64,000 nucleotides of DNA from a virus. The notes beneath the pieces are model-generated. The model ran no database searches, had not been told where the DNA came from, and saw only the letters and a program-made list of their open reading frames with translations. Below are positions 3,556-64,000 of this stretch, piece by piece. The stretch is taken from positions 1 through 64,000 of IMG/VR virus record IMGVR_UViG_3300010158_000053; one strand, given 5' to 3'. Numbering within the stretch: the stretch's first letter is position 1; each line of letters starts with the position of its first letter. Made by a program: the position numbers and the translations under genes.

Positions 3556-4247
3556 ACTTGTTCCTGATCTAGACAAGTATTTATGCTAGAACGCAGGATA
3601 AATTCCTCAACCTTGTGTACGTTATGACCCATGAATAATCCAATCATAGCCAGTGTGGACGAATCTTCCACTAGGATATATGGATTTTGCTGCCATCCCT
3701 GTATAAACCAATTAACCGTTGATCTAGGAATCTTAATTTTGTCACCGTAATTATGACTCCAAGATTCAAATTGAACTTTGGTATTTGCATTACATTCTGA
3801 TTTAAAGTAGACCTTATATCGATATTTCTGATGCGGTAAAGTATTTCGAATAACTTTTTTTGCACCGTTGTTAGTGATATAATCAAACTCCAAGTCACTT
3901 GCTGGTTCATATACTTCAGCTATATAAGGTGTCAGTTCTTTTATGATAGAATTGTAAAGTTCTTTATCTTTACAATATATACTAAAAATACTTTGCTCTG
4001 CTCTGATTTGTATTTCTTTGTCCAAGAATGGAATCAAGGACCTTGTGAATTTTAACAGGCGTGGTTTATCAACTTGTCTACGCTTGGCAGGCCACCCTAC
4101 AATACCGTTACTTTTATTGTGACAGAAGTTTAAAGTTTCCGCAACACTGGTCCGTTTGATTCTCCACGATCCTTCAACGTTGCACCTAATTTTATAAGGC
4201 CACTTGCCGTAAAACAATTTAGATGTTGCTTGCTTGTTGTATGTCAT
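3531..4247 (-). CDS. Hypothetical protein, 238 aa
   Basis: I do not recognise this protein. It is basic and mixed alpha/beta, with no signal or membrane segment. The ATG at 4247 is preceded by AAAGG seven bases away. The start overlaps the 3' end of the clpA-like gene by 29 bases and the end overlaps the next structural-type gene, so it is probably translated as part of the same message. Confidence 0.55.
   Translation of the reverse strand: MTYNKQATSKLFYGKWPYKIRCNVEGSWRIKRTSVAETLNFCHNKSNGIVGWPAKRRQVDKPRLLKFTRSLIPFLDKEIQIRAEQSIFSIYCKDKELYNSIIKELTPYIAEVYEPASDLEFDYITNNGAKKVIRNTLPHQKYRYKVYFKSECNANTKVQFESWSHNYGDKIKIPRSTVNWFIQGWQQNPYILVEDSSTLAMIGLFMGHNVHKVEEFILRSSINTCLDQEQVCQHSVSA
3577..3585 (-). 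promoter_or_regulatory. Late-promoter-like motif CATAAATAC
   Basis: Minus-strand CATAAATAC, matching the T4 late octamer at seven of eight positions, lies about 22 bases before the ATG at 3555 and inside the end of the upstream gene. Confidence 0.5.
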
Positions 4248-6489
4248 TTTTAACCTTTACTACTGGCAGGGGATCAATAAAGTTCAACTTTAATTTGTTA
4301 TCATCAAGTGTAATTTCAACTACCCCGCCATTAGTTAACTTACCAAATAAAATCTCTTTGCTTAATGGTTTCTTAATCATGTCATCAATAGTACGTTGTA
4401 ATGGACGTGCGCCCATTTTACTATCAAAGCCTTTATTAACTAGGTACTCTAATGCATCGTTAGTAGGTTTAACGTGAATGTTTTTATCCTTAACTAGTGC
4501 ATTGAGTTCACCGATAAACTTCTTAACAATAAGAATCATTGTGGTCTTGTCTAATTTGCCAAAGCGGATAACACCATCTAACCGATTGCGAAACTCTGGA
4601 GCAAAGAACTTGCTAACAGCATCTTTGGGATCACTGTCACGTTCCAAACTACCAAAACCCACTGCATTTTTTTCAGCATCAGCTGCACCCAAATTACTTG
4701 TCATAATGATAATAGCATTGCGACCATCTGCTTTCTTACCATTACTACCAGTTATAAATCCATTATCCATCAATTGCAACATAACAGTTAGCACATCTGG
4801 GTGAGCCTTTTCAACTTCGTCTAACAATAGAACACAGTTAGGATTCTCTTGCAAACTTGTAATCAGTTGTCCAGCATTGTCGTCAAAGCCAACATATCCT
4901 GGGGGAGCACCGATAAACTTGGCCACACTATGTTTCTCTTGGAACTCGCTCATATCAAAGCGAACAAGTTTTGTTCCCATATTAGATGCAAGTTGTTTAG
5001 CCGCTTCTGTTTTACCAACACCCGTGGGGCCAACAAATAGAAAACTACCAACTGGTTTGTTTAAAGATTTTAATCCAGACTGTGCAATAAACACCTTGTC
5101 CAACAAACTTTCAATAGCAGTTTCTTGGCCATATACTTTGGCCTTCATATTCTTTTCTAGGTTAGCTAAATTAGTATTGTCTTTATTGCTTAATTGTTCC
5201 AATGGAATGTTAGCAATCTTACTGATCTCAAACAAGATTTCAGCATGGTCAACTGTTCCACCTTCTTCGTCACGTACTTTAAAACGAGCACAGGCGCAGT
5301 CAATCAAATCAATTGCCTTGTCAGGTAACTTCTTATCAGTCATATATTTGACACTGTACTTAACTGAGTCAATGATTGCTTGATTAGTAATCTTAACACC
5401 GTGATGTTTTTCGTAATACTTTTTAAGACCTTTCATAATCTTAACAGCAGTTGCTTCATTGGGCTCGTCAATAGTGACACGTTGGAAACGGCGCATCAAT
5501 GCACGATCTTTTTCAAAGTGTTTACGATATTCTTCCCACGTTGTACTGGCAATAACTTTGATCTTGCCGCGGCCCAATGTTGATTTAAGCATATTAGCCA
5601 TATCATTGCTGCCGCCGCCACTAGTACCAGCACCATTCATCATATGTGCTTCGTCAATAAACAGAATACAGTTGCCTTTCTTTTCAAGGCCACCAATAAC
5701 TGCTTTCAATCGTTCTTCAAAATCACCACGATATTTACTGCCTGCCAACAATGCACTGATATCCAAACTATAAACAGTATGTTCTTGGATAAATTTAGGT
5801 ACAGTATTTTCTACAATTTTGCGAGCAAGGCCTTCTGCAATAGCAGTCTTACCAACACCTGGATCACCAATCAAAATTGCATTAGCTTTTGTACGGCGAG
5901 CCAATACCAATTCAATTTCTTCAATCTCTTTATCTCGACCAATAACTGGGTCAATTTTTTTACTCTTAGCTTTGGCAGTTAAATCAGTACAGAATTGAGT
6001 AATCATTCGAGCAATTTGGGGATTAACATTCTTTTCTTCTTCAACAACTTCTTCACGTGCCGATTCTTTGTTTAAGAATGTAATAAACTTATCTTTATCA
6101 ATGTTGGCTTTGTTAATAAAGAAGTTTGCGTGACTTTTCTTTTCACTAAACATACTGATAAAACAATCAACAGGTTCAATAATCTGACGTCCGCTGAATA
6201 GTACTTGGGTAAACGCACGATTCAACATACGATCCAGTATATCAGTTTTCTTAGGTTTTTCTACGTCAGGATTTACAATGTCACCTAATTCGTTTTCAAT
6301 ATATAATTCAACGTCTTGCTTTAGCTGAGTAATATCGGCACCAAAAGAAGTTAATATAGCTGTGAATGATTCATTGTTCAGCATACTATACAAAAAATGC
6401 TCCAGTGTAATGTACTCGTGGTTATTAACACCAGCTACATTAATTGCATTTTCAAAGATTTGTTCCAGATCTTTATTTGGTTCCAACAT
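4219..6489 (-). CDS. clpA: ClpA-like AAA+ unfoldase
   Basis: At 756 residues the protein is nearly the length of E. coli ClpA (758). It has an N-terminal Clp-N double repeat (about 1-150), a first AAA+ module with Walker A GDPGVGKT at 208-215 and Walker B LFIDEAH near 277-282, and a second module with GPTGVGKT at 487-494 and LLLDEVE near 555-560. It lacks the long middle domain of ClpB. A VGF tripeptide at 610-612 lies where ClpA and ClpX carry the IGF/IGL loop that docks on ClpP, so it should be able to form a protease with ClpP. The phage encodes its own ClpP at 37.2 kb and a tmRNA at 63.5 kb whose tag ends in LAA, a classic ClpA substrate. The gene follows the deformylase gene directly. 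No ClpS adaptor gene is seen. Pairing with the phage ClpP is inferred. Confidence 0.92.
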
Positions 6490-54776: not shown

Positions 54777-55087
54777 TGCAAATCCCAAATCTTTCCACCA
54801 GCATCACGGTAATAGTCGTCGTTAGCATCCACGGCGGTTTCTTCTTTGTCCACTGGATCAATTACATACCATTGTGCACTACCCGACTTTTGATAAGAAT
54901 TAATAACACCAACTGTGGCAACCAACGGAGCAGGTTGCTCAGTAGTTGTGGTAGTAGTTGTAACGGTAGTATGCGTTACTTCTTCATCGTCAAAATCATT
55001 ATACATCACAGGCTCACTCCTTCGAATAACGGCCACAATAATAGCCACAAAAAACAATAAGAAAAACAAAACAATAAGAAAACTCAT
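54773..55087 (-). CDS. Single-pass membrane protein, 104 aa
   Basis: An N-terminal membrane helix (about 3-21) is followed by a Thr-rich linker (TTVTTTTTTTEQ) and an acidic domain. Function unknown. Next to a Gly-rich exported protein gene. Confidence 0.6.
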   Translation of the reverse strand: MSFLIVLFFLLFFVAIIVAVIRRSEPVMYNDFDDEEVTHTTVTTTTTTTEQPAPLVATVGVINSYQKSGSAQWYVIDPVDKEETAVDANDDYYRDAGGKIWDLQ

Positions 55088-55789
55088 TTATAGAACTCCA
55101 ATAATAAAAATAAACAGCAAAACACAACCAATACCAAGGAAAATCATAAGCACGATTTCGCCAACACTAGGACCAGGTTTTTCAACATAGACAACTTGTT
55201 GAGCGGGTTGTGAACTTTGATACTGCAAAGCATCTGCAGGAGCAGCCTGTGCTACCATAGCACCATTTTGCATAGGAACAAATTGTCCATTTTGGTATGT
55301 GCCAACTTGATAACCTTGCTGGTTAACTACTCGACCATCTGGGTAAAGCAATGCATTACCATTATAACCACCACCTGAATAAACAACAGTGTTATGAGGA
55401 TGCATCATATTACCAATAATCAAACCAGTCAATAGTCCGTTACTGTAGCCAAACCCCATACCCATACCGCCGTACATCATAGGTGCACCTGCATAACCAC
55501 CGCCAGTAGTCCTACGTGTCATTGTGGTAGTTGATGTAGTTGTAGTAGTCTGCCTTGGAGCAGCGGCAGGGGGCGCACTAAAACTGCCTTTATTGGCAGT
55601 AGGTGGCGCAACTGGCCGGGGCGCGGCTGAAGGAGCACTGAAACTACCTTTAGATCCGCCTGAACTAACTGAACTATGTCCACCGCCTGAACTAGCGTGG
55701 CCACCTCCTCCACCTCCTCCACCTGGCTTGGCATCGACTGCACAGGCAAAAGCCAAACTAATTGCCAATACTGCAAGAAACTTTTTCAT
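55088..55789 (-). CDS. Exported Gly/Pro/Thr-rich membrane protein, 233 aa
   Basis: A signal peptide (MKKFLAVLAISLAFACAVDA) precedes a Gly/Ser/Pro-rich region, a Met/Gly-rich hydrophobic stretch (about 105-130) and a C-terminal membrane helix (about 210-233). It probably sits in the inner membrane facing the periplasm. Its promoter is strong. Possible envelope modifier; no family recognised. Confidence 0.65.
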   Translation of the reverse strand: MKKFLAVLAISLAFACAVDAKPGGGGGGGGHASSGGGHSSVSSGGSKGSFSAPSAAPRPVAPPTANKGSFSAPPAAAPRQTTTTTSTTTMTRRTTGGGYAGAPMMYGGMGMGFGYSNGLLTGLIIGNMMHPHNTVVYSGGGYNGNALLYPDGRVVNQQGYQVGTYQNGQFVPMQNGAMVAQAAPADALQYQSSQPAQQVVYVEKPGPSVGEIVLMIFLGIGCVLLFIFIIGVL

Positions 55790-55817
55790 AAAAACCTCAT
55801 TAAGTTAAGATAAACTA

Positions 55818-55846
55818 ATTATACAGTAATCTTGAACAAATGTCAA
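55818..55846 (-). promoter_or_regulatory. Sigma70 promoter of the Gly-rich exported protein gene
   Basis: TTGACA (55841-55846) and TATAAT (55818-55823) with a 17-base spacer. Confidence 0.8.
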
Positions 55847-56112
55847 GACTTCATATTCATTTTAAGCAAGTAAAGAGTTACTTCAGGACCTTCTACAATG
55901 ACCACATCTTGTGGATATTTGTTGGCACCAGTATACCATTTACTGTGAGCACCAACTTCCCAAACTTTAACCATTTTGTTATTAAGTTTTTTAATGGTAC
56001 CAAACTCCAAATTATTGTGGTAAGGATAGCAAACAGCATCACCAACCTTGATAATACGGCCCAATTTGTCCTTATGTTCAATTGGTGCTTTTACAGTTTT
56101 AGCAGTGCTCAT
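55843..56112 (-). CDS. Hypothetical KOW-like protein, 89 aa
   Basis: The centre (GRIIKVGDAVCYPYHNNLEFGTIKKL) again has the SH3/KOW-like pattern. Function unknown. The promoter for the next gene begins inside its end. Confidence 0.6.
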   Translation of the reverse strand: MSTAKTVKAPIEHKDKLGRIIKVGDAVCYPYHNNLEFGTIKKLNNKMVKVWEVGAHSKWYTGANKYPQDVVIVEGPEVTLYLLKMNMKS

Positions 56113-56258
56113 ACAGCAGTTTCCCTTGAGTCAGTTTCAAACTTTACTTCTACAATATGATATTTTGAATATGGATATTGTACCACCAACCATTCCAACA
56201 AGCCTGGTTCGTAGGGAAGATTTACTGATTCATCATAATTGGTAATATACCGAATCAT
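56109..56258 (-). CDS. Hypothetical protein, 49 aa
   Basis: ATG 56258; TGA overlaps the next ATG (ATGA). Small acidic-aromatic protein, unknown. Confidence 0.6.
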   Translation of the reverse strand: MIRYITNYDESVNLPYEPGLLEWLVVQYPYSKYHIVEVKFETDSRETAV

Positions 56259-56719
56259 GATGCATACCAAATTTCTTTGAAGCCTTCATCTAATTCAGGT
56301 TCGTCCCAACCTGCAATCATTGATTGCATAACGTGCTTGGGGATATTCTTACCCGGGCGGCTTGCCAAACGACGATTCAATTCTTCTTCATCAGGTGTTT
56401 TAAACACCACTGCAATATGTTCATAGTCAGGCAACATATTAAACTTGCGAGTACGACTAGCAATGCTAGTGCTAGTTTGGTCCCAGATGATATCCTTGCC
56501 TGCTTCACGGGCCTTGACAACATCGTCTGCCATCAACTTTACAGCAATGGGCATAAAGTCTTTGAACACTTCGTTATAGGTCTTACCTTCAAGTTCAGCT
56601 TGTCGTTCCACGTGATGGTCAGTAGAAATGTATGCACAATCTTTAGCCCATTCTTGATTAGCAACCCAAGTGCTTTTACCTGCACCTGGCACACCAATCA
56701 ATTGATAACACTTAGGCAT
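56255..56719 (-). CDS. P-loop polynucleotide kinase-like protein
   Basis: Walker A GVPGAGKST (9-17), a Walker B-like DIIWDQT and the arginine-rich RRLASRP lid match the AAA_33/T4 PseT 5'-kinase family. It lacks the 3'-phosphatase half of T4 Pnk. It probably phosphorylates 5'-OH ends of RNA for the two ligases; the encoded phosphoesterase and phosphatase could treat 3' ends. Confidence 0.85.
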   Translation of the reverse strand: MPKCYQLIGVPGAGKSTWVANQEWAKDCAYISTDHHVERQAELEGKTYNEVFKDFMPIAVKLMADDVVKAREAGKDIIWDQTSTSIASRTRKFNMLPDYEHIAVVFKTPDEEELNRRLASRPGKNIPKHVMQSMIAGWDEPELDEGFKEIWYAS

Positions 56720-56740
56720 TTTCTAAATCCTTAATTTGTT

Positions 56741-56902
56741 TCATTCTTCAACTCCAAAATGTTCTTTAATTCTACGGTTAATCTCTGTTAATACTTCTTC
56801 AGTAACATCTTTAACCTCGCCTGTTAGAACACAATGTTCGTGTTCCCAAGTGCAGATTGTTTTACTTTTTCCATCTTGCTCAACCACAACCGATAGTTTC
56901 AT
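56741..56902 (-). CDS. Hypothetical protein, 53 aa
   Basis: Starts at ATG 56902 overlapping the upstream TAA (TAATG). It ends in INRRIKEHFGVEE, similar to the MNER-family C-terminus. Function unknown. Confidence 0.6.
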   Translation of the reverse strand: MKLSVVVEQDGKSKTICTWEHEHCVLTGEVKDVTEEVLTEINRRIKEHFGVEE

Positions 56903-57141
56903 TACTGTACTCCAAAATGTTGTTTCACTGCTTCTGCGAATCGTTCACTGGGTTTGTAGTTAAGATTGGCAGGATCACGCTGAGATAAACATACACGGGC
57001 ACATTCCCTGACAATCAACTCGGCGAACTTTGCCAACTTATCTTTTTCTGTTACAACACCCGGACCATTTTGACCTTCAACTAAATTATTAGGCGGGTTG
57101 AATCCAGCCTGTAGAGCAAGTTGTCGAATTCGTTCGTTCAT
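56902..57141 (-). CDS. MNER-family small phage protein, 79 aa
   Basis: Starts MNERIRQLALQAG, has KFAELIVRECARVC and ends AVKQHFGVQ; clearly paralogous to 48826-49140. Function unknown. Four-base overlap with the upstream gene. Confidence 0.65.
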   Translation of the reverse strand: MNERIRQLALQAGFNPPNNLVEGQNGPGVVTEKDKLAKFAELIVRECARVCLSQRDPANLNYKPSERFAEAVKQHFGVQ

Positions 57142-57386
57142 AGTTCAATCTCACCAGATGCAACTAATTCATTTACGGCATCATTGAATTCACTTTCAAT
57201 ATCCCAATATGCTTCTGCACGTTCGATATCCTTCTTGCGTTTACGAACAGCAGTACCTTGTTGATAAACAAGCCAAACGTGTTCTTCACAATAACTACGA
57301 CCTTCAACTGTTGGCTTGCAACAGGCCGAGGCCATTTTAGTACTATTGCCAAGCCAAGTGCATTGGGTAATTTCAGTATCATTCAT
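57138..57386 (-). CDS. GcrA-C-like zinc-binding protein, 82 aa
   Basis: The segment CTWLGNSTKMAS then YCEEHVWLVYQ recalls the C-terminal zinc-binding part of GcrA-like proteins. I choose ATG 57386 (MNDTEITQ). It may be a regulator, but the resemblance is weak. Confidence 0.5.
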   Translation of the reverse strand: MNDTEITQCTWLGNSTKMASACCKPTVEGRSYCEEHVWLVYQQGTAVRKRKKDIERAEAYWDIESEFNDAVNELVASGEIEL

Positions 57387-57687
57387 TTTCGGTATCATCT
57401 TTCTTTAAAATTTTATTAAGTTCATCGATAGAATGAACATTGCCTGCACCCACGGAATCCATAAAGTCTTTAAGACTTATCAATTTATCACGTGACATAC
57501 TGAGCATATTGTTAGTACCACGCATTTCGCCTTCCACACCTGAAATGTATTCAAATACTAACAGTAGTACAAATACTGCCCACCAGCGAGTATCGTCCCA
57601 ATGCAAATCTAAGGTAGTCAATATCCAAAAGATAGTGGAAAGTACCACCAGTCTTTGCATTGTTCGACCAGTTAGTAAGTCCCACAT
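57379..57687 (-). CDS. Membrane protein, 102 aa
   Basis: Two hydrophobic helices (about 12-28 and 34-50) then a soluble helical tail. Function unknown. Lies directly after an AAA+ ATPase gene. Confidence 0.6.
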   Translation of the reverse strand: MWDLLTGRTMQRLVVLSTIFWILTTLDLHWDDTRWWAVFVLLLVFEYISGVEGEMRGTNNMLSMSRDKLISLKDFMDSVGAGNVHSIDELNKILKKDDTENE

Positions 57688-57688
57688 A

Positions 57689-58561
57689 TTAGCCTCGTTT
57701 CATACAAGTTGTACGGGCCATTGCCTGCCAATTGCTGGGAAAGCTCTTACGCAAATCTGCCAACTTAAGAACCATACGCAAACTAAGTTCACGCAATTTA
57801 GTTTGGTTAGTTACAATGAAATCAACCAGTTCATCACGCACAATGTCGATGTTATCAAAATCATATTTTTCCAACATACCATCGGAGATAATTTGTTTGA
57901 TACGCAGGATCTTTTCACGGGTAGTATCCATCTGCAAATCAATGTAGTGGCAACGTGACTCAAGTGCGTCCAAGTGGTCACGTAGTTTCTTGGAGCGAAC
58001 GTGTTCAAACTTAATGTTGGTAATGAAAATTGCCGCACCTTTAAACTCAAAGCGATCTGGAATACCTTCGCTACGCAAAATACGGCTGTCAGTATTCCAA
58101 CTAATAAAGCGACGTGAACTAGAGTCCAATGCACCTTTCAAAATATTCAAACTAAGGTCTTCTTGCAAAATGCTGTCACAGTCATCAAACACGACCACGT
58201 TACCGTGTGCGCTGAATTCGTACAGTTTAGCATACAGACCAATTGCACTCATTGCACCTTTAACAACTTCGTACTTGGGTTTCTTTTCAGCCAACTTATT
58301 AAACAAGTCTGCTTTTTCCAGCACAGTTTCAACACCAAACGACTTACCAACGCCTGGAGGGCCACTAACAATCATAGCACGAACATTGCCTTCTTTCACG
58401 GCACGTGTCATACTGTCCAAGATCTCAAACCGTTCACGCAGACGATCCATAATTTGTTCATCTGTTTCCTGTGCAACTTCTGCTTCACGAGCTTTGATAG
58501 CTTCTGTATCAAACTCGAGAATGTTAGAAACTGCTGACGGTTTAGTGTTTGCTTTTGCCAT
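57689..58561 (-). CDS. AAA+ ATPase, 290 aa
   Basis: Walker A SGPPGVGKS near 68-76 and Walker B VVVFDDCD near 122-129 identify an AAA+ protein; IFITNIKFEHV matches sensor 1. The C-terminal half is helical. It resembles single-domain ATPases of T4-like phages of unknown role, perhaps in DNA or protein remodelling. Confidence 0.85.
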   Translation of the reverse strand: MAKANTKPSAVSNILEFDTEAIKAREAEVAQETDEQIMDRLRERFEILDSMTRAVKEGNVRAMIVSGPPGVGKSFGVETVLEKADLFNKLAEKKPKYEVVKGAMSAIGLYAKLYEFSAHGNVVVFDDCDSILQEDLSLNILKGALDSSSRRFISWNTDSRILRSEGIPDRFEFKGAAIFITNIKFEHVRSKKLRDHLDALESRCHYIDLQMDTTREKILRIKQIISDGMLEKYDFDNIDIVRDELVDFIVTNQTKLRELSLRMVLKLADLRKSFPSNWQAMARTTCMKRG

Positions 58562-58593
58562 TTAAAAACTCCTAAGTTGTTTAGTATGTGTGT

Positions 58594-58622
58594 ATTATAA
58601 CAAGAAATAAAACTGTTGTCAA
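58594..58622 (-). promoter_or_regulatory. Sigma70 promoter with shared leader motif
   Basis: TTGACA (58617-58622) and TATAAT (58594-58599) with a 17-base spacer. The transcript begins ACACACATAC. AGGAG precedes the AAA+ gene ATG. Confidence 0.8.
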
Positions 58623-58900
58623 CGGTTGACCTTATAATTTCCGCTCAAAAGAATCATTGAAATATCCGCTTCATTCTTGAGGTTGATCCAATATGGTCGT
58701 ACAGTTTCACCACGTGGTGGAGATCCAAAATTTGAACTCCACTGGCCTCGCTCTCGTTGCCATGAATATTGATGCCCGTAACGTTTTGTTAAAAACTGTT
58801 CAATTTCACCAGCACTTTTGCCCCAGGTAGTGAAACGTAAGGCGTGGGTAAAACCACTCTTGTATGCTGTGTATCTGCGATTAAGTTTAACAATTTTCAT
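58619..58900 (-). CDS. Hypothetical protein from a predicted leaderless mRNA, 93 aa
   Basis: A basic protein (YTAYKSGFTHALRFTTWGKS) I do not recognise. TATAAT lies six bases before the ATG, so the mRNA should be leaderless. Its end overlaps the next promoter. Confidence 0.6.
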   Translation of the reverse strand: MKIVKLNRRYTAYKSGFTHALRFTTWGKSAGEIEQFLTKRYGHQYSWQRERGQWSSNFGSPPRGETVRPYWINLKNEADISMILLSGNYKVNR

Positions 58901-58906
58901 AAGTGT

Positions 58907-58935
58907 ATTATAACAAAAATTGCCTCTCCAGTCAA
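58907..58935 (-). promoter_or_regulatory. Sigma70 promoter, leaderless configuration
   Basis: TTGACT (58930-58935) and TATAAT (58907-58912) with a 17-base spacer; six bases ACACTT separate the -10 from the ATG at 58900. Confidence 0.8.
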
Positions 58936-58950
58936 GAGATATTTTAATCT

Positions 58951-58973
58951 ACGCTCCGTCTGTTCCGGAGTGT
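58951..58973 (-). terminator. Possible terminator after the 359-aa AAA+ gene
   Basis: An eight-base stem (58951-58958 with 58966-58973, one G-U pair) with a seven-base loop lies in the gene-free gap 58901-59063. The following A/T tract is short. The rest of the gap holds no other feature I can see. Confidence 0.4.
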
Positions 58974-59063
58974 CACCACTAAGAGTTGTACTATTACTTG
59001 CCCAAGGATTTACCGCGGTACCTTGCGACTCATACTGAGATTTGTGGGTTGCTCGCTGTTCTA

Positions 59064-60143
59064 TTAAAAAGCATCCATATAGTAGTGATGTTTTTCTTGC
59101 ACCTTAACCAATGTCAACGCTTCACCATCTTTGTTCATAAAGATGAATGTACCTTTTTGTGGATCAATCTTTTGCAGATCACTGGGCTTGAACTCAGCCT
59201 GTTCCCACTCGTAGTAATCATCCTCATCTGGGCTCACTGCTGGAGTGATCACTTTGAAAGTGATATCAACATCGGCCTGTAGTGGATTGCCTTTCCATTG
59301 TTTGTTATCAATGTTGTCGTTCTCTACCAGCACACCTTTGACAGTCAGCGAAACATCGTACTTGTTACCACTGTCAAACTCTGGCTTGACGTTAAGCATA
59401 CGCAGGGCCGCTTCTGGAGGCTCATTGTAGCGATTCATTTCTTCAACCAAGGCCTTCAACATATCAAAGTTGAATTGACTGAACAGACTTGTGATAGAAC
59501 AGATGCGCTGAATGTGGCTCTTGTCATTCAAGTTATCTTCGCAGTATTCAATGATAAAGTCCTGTGTCAGACCTTTGTAGTCCAACATATAGAAGATGCG
59601 ACCTGGACGATTACGCATATGGCTATCAACACGCCATTTGTCGTTACAGGTAATAACAAACAATTTCTTGCTGGGGAATACGCCATCCAGCAGGGTCAGC
59701 ATTGCTTCTTGATCATTGGTGTCATAGACTTTTTCAAACTCATCAAACAATACCATACAAGGTTGTTCGATGTTTTGAATAAGTTGATTGAACTTGTCAC
59801 CAGTCCAAGGCTGATTGATAACAATGGTTGGAATACCTTGTGTAGCAGTTTGAATACTCAATGCCTTGGCCAGTAGGCTCTTACCAGAACCTTTCTCGCC
59901 AGTAAGCATCACGCCAGTACTTGCACTACGGCTCATAAAAGTATTGATGATGCGGTCACAGTTACTATTCAAGTCGCCGTAACGCTTGCCTTTGATTTCA
60001 AAAGAATCAATAGTTTCAAGGAACAAATTTCCCTGCATATCTGCTTTGATGGTATAGTTACCAGCAGGTAGTTGATCATGAAGATCCAACGCTTCTTTCG
60101 AAGATACTCGGAATGTATTACCGCTTTTTAGAAAATATGGCAT
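59064..60143 (-). CDS. AAA+ ATPase, 359 aa
   Basis: Walker A LTGEKGSGKS near 80-89, Walker B VLFDEFEK near 152-159 and sensor-like FVITCNDKW define an AAA+ ATPase. A beta-rich C-terminal extension (from about 265) is unusual. It is probably an early or middle protein with its own promoter in a terminator. The role is not known. Confidence 0.82.
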   Translation of the reverse strand: MPYFLKSGNTFRVSSKEALDLHDQLPAGNYTIKADMQGNLFLETIDSFEIKGKRYGDLNSNCDRIINTFMSRSASTGVMLTGEKGSGKSLLAKALSIQTATQGIPTIVINQPWTGDKFNQLIQNIEQPCMVLFDEFEKVYDTNDQEAMLTLLDGVFPSKKLFVITCNDKWRVDSHMRNRPGRIFYMLDYKGLTQDFIIEYCEDNLNDKSHIQRICSITSLFSQFNFDMLKALVEEMNRYNEPPEAALRMLNVKPEFDSGNKYDVSLTVKGVLVENDNIDNKQWKGNPLQADVDITFKVITPAVSPDEDDYYEWEQAEFKPSDLQKIDPQKGTFIFMNKDGEALTLVKVQEKHHYYMDAF

Positions 60144-60177
60144 CTGTGACTTTCTATGTGTGTTGTTGATATATAAA

Positions 60178-60206
60178 ATTATACGTTAAAAACAAGGGAC
60201 TGTCTA
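60178..60206 (-). promoter_or_regulatory. Sigma70 promoter embedded in a terminator
   Basis: TAGACA (60201-60206) lies in the loop of the terminator hairpin, and TATAAT (60178-60183) follows after 17 bases. The leader carries ACACACATAGAAAGT close to the ATG at 60143. Confidence 0.65.
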
Positions 60207-60215
60207 GTCCCTTGT
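60187..60215 (-). terminator. Rho-independent terminator after NAMPT gene
   Basis: Perfect 10-base arms (60192-60201 and 60206-60215) with a four-base loop are followed by a T-run on the minus strand. Confidence 0.9.
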
Positions 60216-60220
60216 ATAGT

Positions 60221-61615
60221 TTACTTCATACTATTTGCTCGAACTTCGTCAAAGGTAATTTCTTTGATCAGTCGACCATCACGGTAAACTTCTCCCAATG
60301 CTTCAGTCCATACAGTGCCCCGATCTGTCCAACCTTTTGGTTGTTCAACACTGGTTTGGAATTCACCACCGCTGGTCCACAAAGTTACACGACCTTTCTT
60401 GGACGCTTTGACCTTGTCAGTAACGGGGTCTTTGAACACATCAACCCATTCACCTTTAATCAGTGCCGCGCTACATTTCATCGCAAACTTTTGTGTATCA
60501 CGATCCAATTGCTGTAGCAATGCACCACCCATACCAAAAGCAATGTTGTCTGCACTCCAGCCACCAAAGTCAACAATCTTTGTAAGAATACTGCGAATGC
60601 TCAACTGGTTGATACCGTCACCCCAAAGTACACGAACATTGTTCAGTACTTTGTAGCCTTTGGCGTTTGTGGTATATCCAAATGTTTCGCCTAGGATTTG
60701 AAACATCTTTGGCAGTACTTCAACAGGATCGCCACTGTCAGGACGAATAACGACAGTAGCACCGCTGTCAATTACCTGTTGTTTCAACTCAGTGCCCCAC
60801 AAGCGGCAGGCTTGGTAAATGTCGTAACTGTCCGACACCACTGCCAACAATGCACCAGGCTTGCCAAATTGTTGAACCATATTGCTATAGGCTTTTACTT
60901 CGTCTGGACGACCCCAACTTGTGACAGTGCTGTGCTCTGCGGCAGGGATACTAAATCCAGCGATTTCAGCGCCGTAATACTCACGAGCATACAAAATGCC
61001 AGTGATAGTATCAGTGCCCATGAAGTTGACAAGGTGGGCGGCTCCGCCGATGCCAGCGGATTCCATGCTGCTAACGCCACGAGCACCAAAATCATGGAGC
61101 TTAAAACTAATAGATGTAGGATCACCAGATTTCTCCAAATAGTCTGTAATAATGTTTTTGATGTACTTACTTTGCGTTGACACAGTAGTACCGTACCAAA
61201 TAGCACGAAGCAAAGCAGTTTCCAACCAAGTAGTCAACCAGAAACATTTAGGATCGGTGTTTTCAATTGTCGCAAGTACGTTTGAGACTGGAACAACAGT
61301 GCCTTCGGGTACCGCTCTGATAACAACTGGCAAATATCCGTTGTGAGCGGTAAGAATGTACTCCCATCCTTCCCTGTTAAAGGGCTCGCCGTGAGCGGTG
61401 AGGATTTCGTCAGCGATGTCGATGTCAGCCTGGGTAATTGGGCTGAGTAGGTATTCCTTGATAAAAGCCTGTAGTCCGAAGAATACAGTTCTATCATAAC
61501 GGCCGCCTCGTGACTCAATGTACGAATATACATTGGTGGTTCCTAGTGGGTATTGTTTGAACATTGACACTTTATAACTGTCTGTGTTCAGGATAAGATT
61601 TTTAGATAATTTCAT
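60221..61615 (-). CDS. nadV: Nicotinamide phosphoribosyltransferase
   Basis: The enzyme makes NMN from nicotinamide and PRPP. Family hallmarks include TDSYKVSMFKQYP, GARGVSSMESAGIGG, IPAAEHSTV with the catalytic His, and VVIRPDSGDP with the catalytic Asp. At 464 residues it is full length. The NMN adenylyltransferase gene precedes it, giving a complete two-step NAD salvage route (the NARP2-type pathway reported in phages). Confidence 0.96.
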   Translation of the reverse strand: MKLSKNLILNTDSYKVSMFKQYPLGTTNVYSYIESRGGRYDRTVFFGLQAFIKEYLLSPITQADIDIADEILTAHGEPFNREGWEYILTAHNGYLPVVIRAVPEGTVVPVSNVLATIENTDPKCFWLTTWLETALLRAIWYGTTVSTQSKYIKNIITDYLEKSGDPTSISFKLHDFGARGVSSMESAGIGGAAHLVNFMGTDTITGILYAREYYGAEIAGFSIPAAEHSTVTSWGRPDEVKAYSNMVQQFGKPGALLAVVSDSYDIYQACRLWGTELKQQVIDSGATVVIRPDSGDPVEVLPKMFQILGETFGYTTNAKGYKVLNNVRVLWGDGINQLSIRSILTKIVDFGGWSADNIAFGMGGALLQQLDRDTQKFAMKCSAALIKGEWVDVFKDPVTDKVKASKKGRVTLWTSGGEFQTSVEQPKGWTDRGTVWTEALGEVYRDGRLIKEITFDEVRANSMK

Positions 61616-61656
61616 TTTAAAGTTCCTTTAAAGTTAAAAGCATTCGCGTCTATCGC

Positions 61657-62676
61657 TTATGCACCTACAAAATGCTGTAGGATTTCGTAATGGTCTTCAA
61701 AGCATTGATCCGACCGGACCTCTGCAATAGGCACCCATCTAGCCTTTTCTGCATCATCACTACCTTTGACTTTTGGAAGTTCGCCATCAGGTAGAACAAT
61801 GTGGAAAGCGTGTGTAATTATACGACCTCGTGGACTACGGTCAATTGCATCAAATACTCTGCTACGAACAATACTACCTTTAAGTACTGGAGCAGGAACC
61901 TTGATCTGTGTTTCTTCACGTAGTTCACGCAACATAGCGGCCTCAACACTTTTGTCTGTATTAGCATTGACATAACCGCCAGGCAGTGCCCAAAGGCCGC
62001 GACCTGGTTCAGCACGGCGTTTGATCATTAGTACGTGACCACTGCAAATGACCACAGCGTCGGCAGTACTAAAGATTGGAGGATACTTCAATCCAGCATA
62101 TTGCTTTTTGTGTTCAATAATGAATTCACGTTCACGGATCACTTGTTCGTACTCTGCGGTAAGTGAAAACGCCATTAAGAAATCAAAAGTACTCGGCGGT
62201 ACAACATTCTTAATAAAGTTCATATTGACATCACGTTTGAAATACAACTCGCGAATGTCAGTAGCATCAAGTGGTTCAAGCAGTTCTACTTCTTCAAAAC
62301 CCCATTGCGGGAACATATCTAAGTAAAACGAACTTGGATCTTTCTTGTGCCCAATAATACCAATGTTATCACCCGGTTTGGTATGTTTAGCAACCAATGC
62401 TTGAACACGAACTGCCCACGCTTGGTCATTGTAAATTGTATCTGGATTGGGTTCAACTTGAACCTGCAAGTCAAGTCCACTAGTTGCGTACTTGATCATT
62501 ACGCTACGTTCGTGAAAGGTAAAGGGATTCTTGTAAGTGCGTGGCTGATTAGCGCTGCCGCAAATAAAGATCAATTGTTTACATTTAGCAGTGGCTCTAT
62601 GTGCCAGCATCAAATGTGCTGTGTGAAACGGTTGAAAACGTCCGATTAGGACAAGGGTATCATATTGTTTAGACAT
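61657..62676 (-). CDS. nadM: Bifunctional NMN adenylyltransferase / Nudix hydrolase
   Basis: The N-terminal half has the adenylyltransferase motif GRFQPFHTAH (TxAH variant of HxGH) and a substrate loop RTYKNPFTF, as in NadM. The C-terminal half has a Nudix box GGYVNANTDKSVEAAMLRELREETQI. It converts NMN and ATP to NAD; the Nudix domain may hydrolyse ADP-ribose or similar. It precedes the NAMPT gene in an operon with its own promoter. Confidence 0.94.
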   Translation of the reverse strand: MSKQYDTLVLIGRFQPFHTAHLMLAHRATAKCKQLIFICGSANQPRTYKNPFTFHERSVMIKYATSGLDLQVQVEPNPDTIYNDQAWAVRVQALVAKHTKPGDNIGIIGHKKDPSSFYLDMFPQWGFEEVELLEPLDATDIRELYFKRDVNMNFIKNVVPPSTFDFLMAFSLTAEYEQVIREREFIIEHKKQYAGLKYPPIFSTADAVVICSGHVLMIKRRAEPGRGLWALPGGYVNANTDKSVEAAMLRELREETQIKVPAPVLKGSIVRSRVFDAIDRSPRGRIITHAFHIVLPDGELPKVKGSDDAEKARWVPIAEVRSDQCFEDHYEILQHFVGA

Positions 62677-62725
62677 TCAAAAATCCTTTGAATAATGTCG
62701 CTCGGAGTCTATCTCTTTGCTGTAT

Positions 62726-62734
62726 GTATTTATT
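62726..62734 (-). promoter_or_regulatory. Late-promoter-like AATAAATAC
   Basis: Minus-strand AATAAATAC overlaps the sigma70 -10 box of the NAD operon promoter, so the same site may work early and late. Confidence 0.4.
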
Positions 62735-62760
62735 ATACAGGAGAAATTATCTCCTGTAAA
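62732..62760 (-). promoter_or_regulatory. Sigma70-like promoter of the NAD salvage operon
   Basis: TTTACA (62755-62760) and TATAAT (62732-62737) with a 17-base spacer, entirely overlapping an eight-base hairpin. Confidence 0.65.
62737..62757 (-). terminator. Hairpin after the rubredoxin gene
   Basis: Eight-base arms (62737-62744 and 62750-62757) with a five-base loop. It could end the rubrerythrin-rubredoxin transcript; the T-run is poor. Confidence 0.45.
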
Positions 62761-62775
62761 GTGATTTGGTTATTT

Positions 62776-62910
62776 TTATACTACTATATCTTCGTAGTCT
62801 TCTTTACCTACACCACACTCTGGGCAGGTAAAATCATCTGGAAGTGTATCCCAAACGCCTTCAGTTTCCTCATCGTGAATGTGACCACAGACAATGCAAA
62901 CGTGTTCCAT
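62776..62910 (-). CDS. Rubredoxin
   Basis: The 44-residue protein has both iron-binding knuckles, CIVCGH (Cys5, Cys8) and CPECGVGK (Cys29, Cys32), with the conserved Trp20 and LPDDF between them. It is shorter than most rubredoxins (about 52) but complete in ligands. It would pass electrons to the rubrerythrin encoded just upstream; the ATG overlaps that gene's TAA (TAATG). Confidence 0.9.
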   Translation of the reverse strand: MEHVCIVCGHIHDEETEGVWDTLPDDFTCPECGVGKEDYEDIVV

Positions 62911-63359
62911 TATAGTTTCTCCAATACAGATTGATATGCGGCGGCGTGACGTTGCTCAACTTTTTGCAATGCTGCAAAGCGTTTTTCAGCTTTGGCCAAT
63001 ACAGCAGCAAATTGTTCAGCGTGTTCTTTACTTTCTTCAATTTGGTGATTGGCTTCAAAAGCGGCTTTGGTATTGCCTTCAAGTTCTGCTGCACGTTTGA
63101 AGTCTGGATACATTGTAGTAAACTCATATGTTTCACCTTCAATGGCTTTTTCCAAACATTCTCGAGTATTTGGTTTACCAATTAGTAATTCCAAATGACC
63201 CCAAGCGTGTAGCAACTCTTGGTCAGCAGTATGCTCAAAATGTCGTGCAACATCTTCGTAACCTTCTTCCCTTGCAATCTTTGCAAAGTAACGATACTTG
63301 ATGTGTGCTTGACTCTCACCCGCCAATGCGCTTTCAAGATTTTTAATTGTAATAGACAT
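62910..63359 (-). CDS. Rubrerythrin-like diiron peroxidase
   Basis: The ferritin-like four-helix protein has ligands in ALAGESQAH (E15), DQELLHAWGH (E48, H51), EGETYEF (E75) and IEESKEHAEQF near 107-117. It reduces hydrogen peroxide with electrons from rubredoxin. The usual fused C-terminal rubredoxin domain is missing and is supplied by the next gene instead. With the SOD it forms a superoxide-to-water pathway. GGAG lies before the ATG at 63359. Confidence 0.9.
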   Translation of the reverse strand: MSITIKNLESALAGESQAHIKYRYFAKIAREEGYEDVARHFEHTADQELLHAWGHLELLIGKPNTRECLEKAIEGETYEFTTMYPDFKRAAELEGNTKAAFEANHQIEESKEHAEQFAAVLAKAEKRFAALQKVEQRHAAAYQSVLEKL

Positions 63360-63380
63360 ACAGTCTCCTTGTAAAATAAT

Positions 63381-63409
63381 ATTGTACTTTTATTTACTAT
63401 AGGAATCAA
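63381..63409 (-). promoter_or_regulatory. Probable promoter of the rubrerythrin-rubredoxin operon
   Basis: TACAAT (63381-63386) with a weak -35 TTGATT (63404-63409), 17 bases apart. A TAAATA stretch lies in the spacer. Confidence 0.5.
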
Positions 63410-63459
63410 CCTAAAAATAGCATTTTTCAATTGAAAATTCCTATGACTTCTATAGTCAT

Positions 63460-63482
63460 AAAAATAGGCTCCGGAGAGCCTA
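63460..63482 (-). terminator. Terminator of the tmRNA gene
   Basis: Perfect seven-base arms (63465-63471 and 63476-63482) with a four-base loop are followed by five T on the minus strand. A second small hairpin lies just downstream. Confidence 0.85.
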
Positions 63483-63666
63483 CTTTGAGTTTCTGTTGCG
63501 AGGTATGTCTTACCCCAGGCTGCGTTTAGGCGGCCAATGCGTAAACTGAATCGTTTGCATTTATAGGTTTTGTGTCTTCGGCCGGGAAACCCCAACCCTA
63601 ACGGCTTCTACATTGCCGGACTGTCCATTTCATTACTCTTGACCCTGTCGAAACCATGGCAGGCCC
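63465..63666 (-). ncRNA. ssrA: Two-piece tmRNA, coding piece with tag reading frame
   Basis: The 5' end GGGCCTG (63666-63660) pairs perfectly over seven bases with CAGGTCC before the ACCA of the acceptor piece. The D-loop region GGTTTCGACAGGG is typical of tmRNA. The resume codon GCA starts a frame coding ANDSVYALAA then TAA (63514-63546), close to the host-type tag AANDENYALAA and ending in the LAA degron read by ClpA and ClpX. Downstream stems fit tmRNA pseudoknots and end at the terminator. A bound SmpB from the host is presumably needed. The exact 3' end is not known. Confidence 0.93.
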
Positions 63667-63679
63667 ATCATAAGAAAAC

Positions 63680-63877
63680 TTACTTTATAAAACGAGGAAT
63701 ACGAATTTCTGTACCAGCATATTGAAATGAATCTAACATTGGAACTAATGATTCAATATCACTAGCATTGTGTCGTTCCATCATCGTATGCTCACCATCT
63801 ATCAACATAAAGTACAACTTGGTTGTACCTTCGTCAACTTGCGGCTTGAAAATATATTCTAAATCTTGTAAAATCAT
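63680..63877 (-). CDS. Small protein encoded inside the tmRNA intervening segment, 65 aa
   Basis: ATG 63877 with AAGGA six bases upstream opens a 65-codon frame (MILQDLEYIFKPQVDEG...), ending at TAA 63680. It lies wholly in the 223-base segment between the CCA end of the acceptor piece (63890) and the mature 5' end of the coding piece (63666), which is normally cut out and discarded. The codon use and charge pattern look like a true small phage protein. I do not recognise a family. It would be translated from the tmRNA precursor before or instead of processing. Confidence 0.7.
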   Translation of the reverse strand: MILQDLEYIFKPQVDEGTTKLYFMLIDGEHTMMERHNASDIESLVPMLDSFQYAGTEIRIPRFIK

Positions 63878-63889
63878 CAAACTTCCTTA

Positions 63890-63954
63890 TGGTGGACCTG
63901 GCGGGAGTCGAACCCGCGTCCAGAATCCTTTTCAATCGACTTCATACAGTCTTA
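63890..63954 (-). ncRNA. ssrA: Two-piece tmRNA, acceptor piece
   Basis: The segment GACGCGGGTTCGACTCCCG is the tmRNA T-arm with the invariant TTCGA, followed by CAGGTCCACCA, which is the acceptor strand and encoded CCA. Upstream GACTGT and TTGA can pair with ACAGTC and TCAA of the coding piece to form helix P2. The acceptor piece comes first in the transcript, which defines a circularly permuted gene as known in alphaproteobacteria, cyanobacteria and some betaproteobacteria. The 5' end is placed from the promoter and is approximate. Confidence 0.93.
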
Positions 63955-63960
63955 ACTTAC

Positions 63961-63989
63961 AGTATATATTTATTTAATATCTATGTCAA
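63961..63989 (-). promoter_or_regulatory. Sigma70 promoter of the permuted tmRNA gene
   Basis: TTGACA (63984-63989) and TATACT (63961-63966) are separated by 17 bases on the minus strand and place the transcript start at about 63954, the start of the acceptor piece. Confidence 0.82.
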
Positions 63990-64000
63990 TCAAATTGGTA

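Follow-up and report, generated by a model that had tools for sequence, protein, structure and literature searches.

In many uncultured phages, the segment discarded from permuted tmRNA precursors appears to be a slot for real, interchangeable protein genes. The case that points to this is the intervening segment (IVS) at 63667-63889, minus strand, of the window, the 64,000-nucleotide stretch analysed here, which is part of the 76.7-kb virus record IMGVR_UViG_3300010158_000053. Tail-fibre, RNA-ligase and protease genes in the record mark its source as a tailed phage. A 65-codon frame that occupies nearly all of the IVS is very probably a genuine nested gene, and the reading favored here, with a probability of roughly 0.8, is that this cargo gene is read from the tmRNA precursor.

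The surrounding RNA is, on its sequence features, a member of the permuted (two-piece) tmRNA family. On the minus strand, ARAGORN detects a permuted tmRNA (tmRNA*) spanning 63435-63982, whose tag is ANDSVYALAA, and the Rfam model RF04321 (tmRNA_permuted) matches at 119 bits against a cut-off of 47. The acceptor piece, which supplies the tRNA-like 3' part, is encoded upstream of the coding piece; the stem GGGCCUG/CAGGUCC contains the G3:U70 alanine identity pair and continues into an encoded CCA (GGGCCUG/CAGGUCC-ACCA); and the tag frame (63526-63558 according to ARAGORN) reads ANDSVYALAA*, a hydrophobic degron and then a stop. The 76.7-kb record, possibly only a fragment, yielded no SmpB gene.

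The features follow one another along the minus strand. A promoter-like TTGACA-17-TATACT (63961-63989, 11 of 12 consensus matches) lies directly 5' of the acceptor piece (63890-63954, exact 5' end approximate), which comprises the T-arm, the acceptor 3' strand CAGGUCC and the encoded ACCA; similar or perfect promoters, equally spaced, recur in many related tmRNAs. Between the encoded CCA, whose last base is 63890, and the GGGCCUG that opens the coding piece at 63666 lie the 223 bases that are not part of the mature tmRNA. Inside this segment the Shine-Dalgarno sequence AAGGA (63884-63888) stands six bases 5' of the ATG at 63877, and the gene (63680-63877, product MILQDLEYIFKPQVDEGTTKLYFMLIDGEHTMMERHNASDIESLVPMLDSFQYAGTEIRIPRFIK) closes with a TAA at 63682-63680; where tables give 66 rather than 65 residues, the difference is a TTG directly before the ATG. 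The coding piece (63483-63666, 3' end approximate) is followed by an intrinsic terminator, the hairpin UAGGCUC-UCCG-GAGCCUA and then UUUUU (63460-63482). The initial annotation had described a frame nearly filling the IVS, a Shine-Dalgarno sequence immediately 3' of the CCA and a stop 13 bases ahead of the coding piece, and every one of these coordinates is exact. Its proposal that a single transcript provides both a stable RNA and an mRNA is supported by the same anatomy, in which a promoter precedes the acceptor piece and a hairpin and T-run follow the coding piece: the arrangement of the sequence places acceptor piece, ORF and coding piece in one transcription unit with one promoter and one terminator.

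Conservation, selection and predicted structure all argue that the frame is a gene. Frames spanning the window IVS at this length arise in 0-2 of 300 dinucleotide shuffles that keep the IVS ends. Scanning IMG/VR with the single 65-aa protein returned 14 relatives, and scanning with the alignment of those returned at least 56 loci, nearly all of which cover all 65 residues; relatives were not picked by position. The window and L004, both in-tmRNA copies, differ by 8.5 synonymous and 5.5 non-synonymous changes (dS 0.27, dN 0.036), and the resulting dN/dS of 0.13 indicates purifying selection. Across contexts the protein gives pS 0.62 and pN 0.15. AlphaFold2 predicts from a 38-sequence alignment a confident fold (mean pLDDT 95.4) in the order helix-helix-strand-strand-helix-strand-strand. 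The gene occupies the same tmRNA slot in L002 and L004, which are different, divergent phages, and in L003, which is identical to the window in all compared stretches, and dozens of other phages carry other genes in the same place. Two of the checks proposed with the initial annotation, a search of phage metagenomes for homologues in this position and a comparison of synonymous with non-synonymous change in relatives, have thus come out in favor of a nested gene. As to what the protein does, a Pfam search gave no match, PHROGs nothing significant and a search of INPHARED phages nothing useful; a PDB fold search with the model had no confident match (best E 0.1), and among viral models the fold resembles uncharacterised phage proteins only (best E 0.0014).

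Most relatives of the 65-aa protein are ordinary phage genes in small-gene clusters outside tmRNAs, often joined to the upstream gene by GGAGTTGAAGAATGA. Members of this kind (L021, L031 and L049, for example) start at a recurrent ...GGAGTTGAAGAATGA junction that ends the upstream gene, which suggests another modular small-gene array in these phages. In L011 and L012 the gene lies just 5' of a permuted tmRNA bearing another short IVS. L096 and L123, considered as remote family members inside IVSs, were set aside after a weak profile comparison (probability 60%, 23 columns), and a second ARAGORN call in L002, an unpermuted tmRNA with an odd tag and the same acceptor piece, was treated as false.

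Is the window an isolated case? IMG/VR was scanned for acceptor-piece and coding-piece sequences, with pairing of the IVS ends as a filter, and the extracted IVSs comprise 82 distinct sequences of 30-475 nt. Forty-eight of these reach at least 100 nt, and 41 of the 48 are spanned by one ORF starting no more than 24 nt from the CCA, against 2.8 expected from end-keeping shuffles. The only empty ones among the long IVSs are L168 plus L193 and L196 of cultured phages. Two successive genes fill the slots of L109, L130 and L131, and the slot gene of L145 has a delayed start, where the leader AUAAGGAAAUAU is present in three near-tandem copies ahead of the start codon. The acceptor search pattern contained UAAGG, so that ascertainment favored ORF-bearing IVSs; in the set defined by the coding-piece pattern, a frame is found in 47 of 57 IVSs. 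The slot proteins sort into some 30 unrelated groups (BLAST yields 35 clusters, in two of which the shared part is merely read-through into the tmRNA). One cargo is a thioredoxin with WCGPC (Pfam E 4e-21), in an identical IVS in three contigs, and another, in the 406-nt IVS of L146 (IMGVR_UViG_3300023179_000058), is a complete IscU-like iron-sulfur scaffold (NifU_N E 3e-55). A weak GNAT-like match and hydrophobic peptides of 22-26 residues are found as well.

Unrelated cargoes are fitted to the slot in much the same way. The leader, CCA followed by UAAGGA...AUG, is mostly common to them, and the stop UUAUGAU often so. In the coding-piece set, AGGA occurs within the first ten IVS bases of 38 of the 47 ORF-bearing IVSs and of 1 of the 10 ORF-less ones (Fisher p 4e-5). 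Among the 41 single-gene long slots, the conserved UUAUGAU end provides the stop, its UGA, for 21 genes, and 15 terminate earlier; the five whose frames enter the mature tmRNA are awkward for a clean cargo slot. In L070, L140, L143, L155, L181 and L079 the slot-gene frame extends 27-81 nt into the mature coding piece. Tags such as ANDxxxALAA are intact in most slot-bearing tmRNAs, which therefore look functional.

The cultured phages with permuted tmRNAs that were examined have short or ORF-less IVSs. In one of them, Stenotrophomonas phage vB_Sm_QDWS359 (L196), the CDS vBSmQDWS359_42 was rejected as an IVS gene, since it runs antisense across the permuted tmRNA, and this annotated hypothetical protein is a probable misannotation. 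The phage tmRNA motifs had no exact counterpart in two scans of bacterial and archaeal genomes. The ORF-less IVSs of L065 and L034 combine a long end helix with T-arm-like inserts (GGTTCGATTCC / GGTTCAATTCC), perhaps tRNA relics.

The ends of the IVS pair over about 10-13 bp and extend the acceptor stem outward, CCA and then UAAGGAAGUUU pairing with AAGUUUUCUUAU and then GAU-GGG. In the window the 5' strand AUAAGGAAGUUUG (63878-63890) and the 3' strand UAAGUUUUCUUAU (63670-63682), which contains the stop codon, match at 13 of 13 pairs. Helix positions 5-13 are 89% paired across loci, as against 66% (maximum 72%) when 3' strands are shuffled among loci and at most 59% when the strands are slid by one to three bases; end pairing was not a filter in these statistics. 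The helix covaries, and several of its types, among them AAGGAUAU/GUAUCUUU, AAAUAUAU/GUAUAUUU and AAGCAUGU/GUGUGCUU, are compensatory. Its 5' strand contains the Shine-Dalgarno sequence in most ORF-bearing slots, as it does in the window. Folding of the 502-nt window transcript gives the Shine-Dalgarno sequence an unpaired probability of 0.5-0.64 in the nascent RNA, 0.20 once the IVS end is made and 0.00 with the coding-piece strand present, and most of the 41 slots show the same drop. The Shine-Dalgarno sequence is thus predicted to be open in the nascent RNA and buried later. In the IVS folded alone the value is 0.04.

How could one RNA serve both purposes? The tmRNA precursor would itself be the message for the slot gene. 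As long as transcription of the 3' half continues, the Shine-Dalgarno sequence would be open and ribosomes could load; with the 3' strand of the IVS and the coding piece in place, the helix would close, bury the Shine-Dalgarno sequence and end loading. The same closure would align the two tmRNA halves, present the joined acceptor stem and expose its ends to RNase P and 3' processing, after which the IVS would be lost and the two-piece tmRNA would stay. Such a translational switch, confined to the nascent window, is about an even bet. Competition between processing and translation, which the initial annotation proposed, is plausible in this model and has a structural basis, because the helix holding the two tmRNA halves together also contains the Shine-Dalgarno sequence. 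A ribosome that terminates where the slot ends would cover the RNase P site, and the two processes should then be in competition. As the released IVS still buries the Shine-Dalgarno sequence, the gene may be little translated if processing is fast. Where a frame enters the coding piece, one may speculate that cleavage in mid-translation would yield a non-stop message, the tmRNA's own substrate. A more general model, in which the permuted tmRNA of water phages is a gene-cassette platform with cargo swapped at the tRNA-like ends, the assembly helix is the translational switch, and each transcript is briefly mRNA and then irreversibly rescue RNA, is offered tentatively and stands somewhat below even odds.

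The initial annotation had regarded an unrelated intervening segment in the same tmRNA as evidence against the gene. Such pairings do occur, in L063, L065 and L068 compared with the window and in other pairs, yet the conclusion drawn from them does not hold: the long unrelated IVSs are themselves coding and the non-coding ones are short. The protein is then replaceable cargo and not an intrinsic part of the tmRNA. Phages may exchange cargo through recombination within the conserved tmRNA parts that flank the slot. In five pairs at least 85% of the IVS is shared but under 80% of the coding piece, and in five the coding piece is shared and the cargo unrelated; these mismatches imply that cargo and tmRNA backbone recombine as a mosaic.

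Could the cassette be moving on its own account? An IVS with its tRNA-like ends might spread when the T-loop and the coding-piece GGUUUCGAC recombine, whether site-specifically or by homology, with cargo of little matter to the phage. Besides the five pairs whose IVS is alike and whose tmRNAs have diverged, a stretch of 283 bp from the T-arm to the start of the coding piece is identical between the window and L002, amid tmRNAs that are otherwise 65-84% alike and an unrelated upstream neighborhood. In L034 (IMGVR_UViG_3300014834_000367, 3950-4950) two gene cassettes bounded by tmRNA parts survive as a degraded tandem array, joined at a word they share, TTCGAC. The order is a degenerate acceptor piece, the 65-aa gene, the start of a coding piece that runs at TTCGAC into the end of a further acceptor piece, a second gene, the remnant of a further coding piece and finally a permuted tmRNA that is intact and carries no cargo. 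However, the slot proteins that were scanned include no recognisable recombinase or endonuclease, metabolic cargo such as thioredoxin and IscU looks useful, and the array is a single find (one exact pattern was scanned and one contig found, so arrays of this type are not put forward as common). Selfish mobility is unlikely as the whole account, and it is compatible with a cargo gene read from the precursor rather than exclusive of it.

A different possibility is that ORFs enter the IVS by recombination and are hardly translated there, the selection on them dating from life outside the tmRNA. The ordinary gene clusters that house most relatives of the 65-aa protein would fit this, as would the predicted burial of the Shine-Dalgarno sequence in both the finished precursor and the released IVS and the precedent of S23p in a 23S rRNA IVS (PMC4990558). 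The copies inside IVSs speak against it. A synonymous excess is seen between them in four comparisons (window and L004, L156 and L189, L069 and L118, L081 and L160), and ten in-slot families pooled give pS 0.121 and pN 0.038, with codon-position differences of 35/18/63; the ratio is not low in every in-slot family, as dN/dS is near 0.5-1.9, on few changes, in the L070/L140/L143/L155 and L166/L179 comparisons. Among the tiny membrane peptides, the lengths of the IVS step 84/87/90, and the extra base of an 88-nt form lies 5' of the ATG. Stop and Shine-Dalgarno sequence, moreover, fit the slot across unrelated cargoes. Silent carriage is accordingly quite improbable. A chance frame in an AT-rich spacer is refuted for the window gene by its relatives, its dN/dS, its fold and the excess of spanned long IVSs, although IVSs of 70-100 nt are fairly often spanned by chance (8.1 of 24 expected) and the small frames in IVSs below 100 nt include such cases.

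The permuted tmRNA family is known; the nested cargo slot appears to be new. Permuted tmRNAs of Alpha- and Betaproteobacteria, Cyanobacteria and some phages (RF04321) have acceptor piece, IVS and coding piece in the same order and IVS ends that pair, whereas the IVS of the window encodes a protein and supplies the ribosome-binding site for it. The paper on the 2025 tmRNA database (PMC11915505) describes 11,946 permuted sequences; the passages found there report a tRNA gene and a repeat as IVS contents and mention no protein gene in a permuted IVS. The Melnitz phage paper, a survey of phage two-piece tmRNAs, likewise mentions no protein gene in an IVS (PMC9004378), another merely lists phage tmRNAs (PMC4131195), and no earlier report of protein genes in permuted tmRNA IVSs was found in the open-access papers searched.

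The nearest precedent is the S23p ORF in a 23S rRNA IVS, also a gene within the discarded segment of a stable-RNA precursor, which in Coxiella is apparently untranslated in vivo (PMC4990558). That system involves one protein family and excision by RNase III, whereas the phage slot has many unrelated cargoes, a common Shine-Dalgarno and stop design, a tmRNA host and a home in phages; the window locus is a tmRNA rather than 23S rRNA, and its protein lacks a Pfam match. Group I introns with LAGLIDADG endonuclease genes, which occur in tmRNA genes according to the database paper (PMC11915505), also place a protein gene in a removed part of the precursor, but they lie in the T-loop and the window IVS lies between the CCA and the 5' strand of the acceptor stem; an Rfam scan of 55000-64000 detected no intron, and the 65-aa protein has no Pfam domain. 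Integron gene cassettes are alike in holding exchangeable, promoterless cargo at a fixed site by structured ends, with one array (L034) here, and unlike in that the tmRNA halves form the ends of the slot, which usually has one cargo gene.

The slot offers a possible use for the puzzling permutation of tmRNA, in that one stable-RNA promoter would also express a protein. If this is true, the transcript is bifunctional, the same base pairs switch it from messenger to stable RNA, dozens of natural variants are at hand for testing, and the expression of auxiliary genes is coupled to tmRNA maturation. Gene callers that mask RNA genes may overlook hidden phage auxiliary genes of this kind, thioredoxin and IscU among them.

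The surroundings of the window tmRNA have features of their own. More than 20 tRNA genes lie on its upstream side. This tRNA-rich region also contains, just beyond the window and 2 kb away from the tmRNA, a GOLLD RNA (RF02032, 202 bits; L016:2824-3288, or 65824-66288 of the record) that overlaps a tRNA-Lys gene. The term water phages used above comes from the author's reading of the collection and from this lake-derived GOLLD nearby, rather than from sample records. Adjoining the tmRNA, at 60221-63359 of the window, are genes that by eye encode a nicotinamide phosphoribosyltransferase, a NadM-Nudix protein, a rubredoxin and a rubrerythrin, which on this reading by eye would give the phage functions in NAD salvage and oxidative stress.
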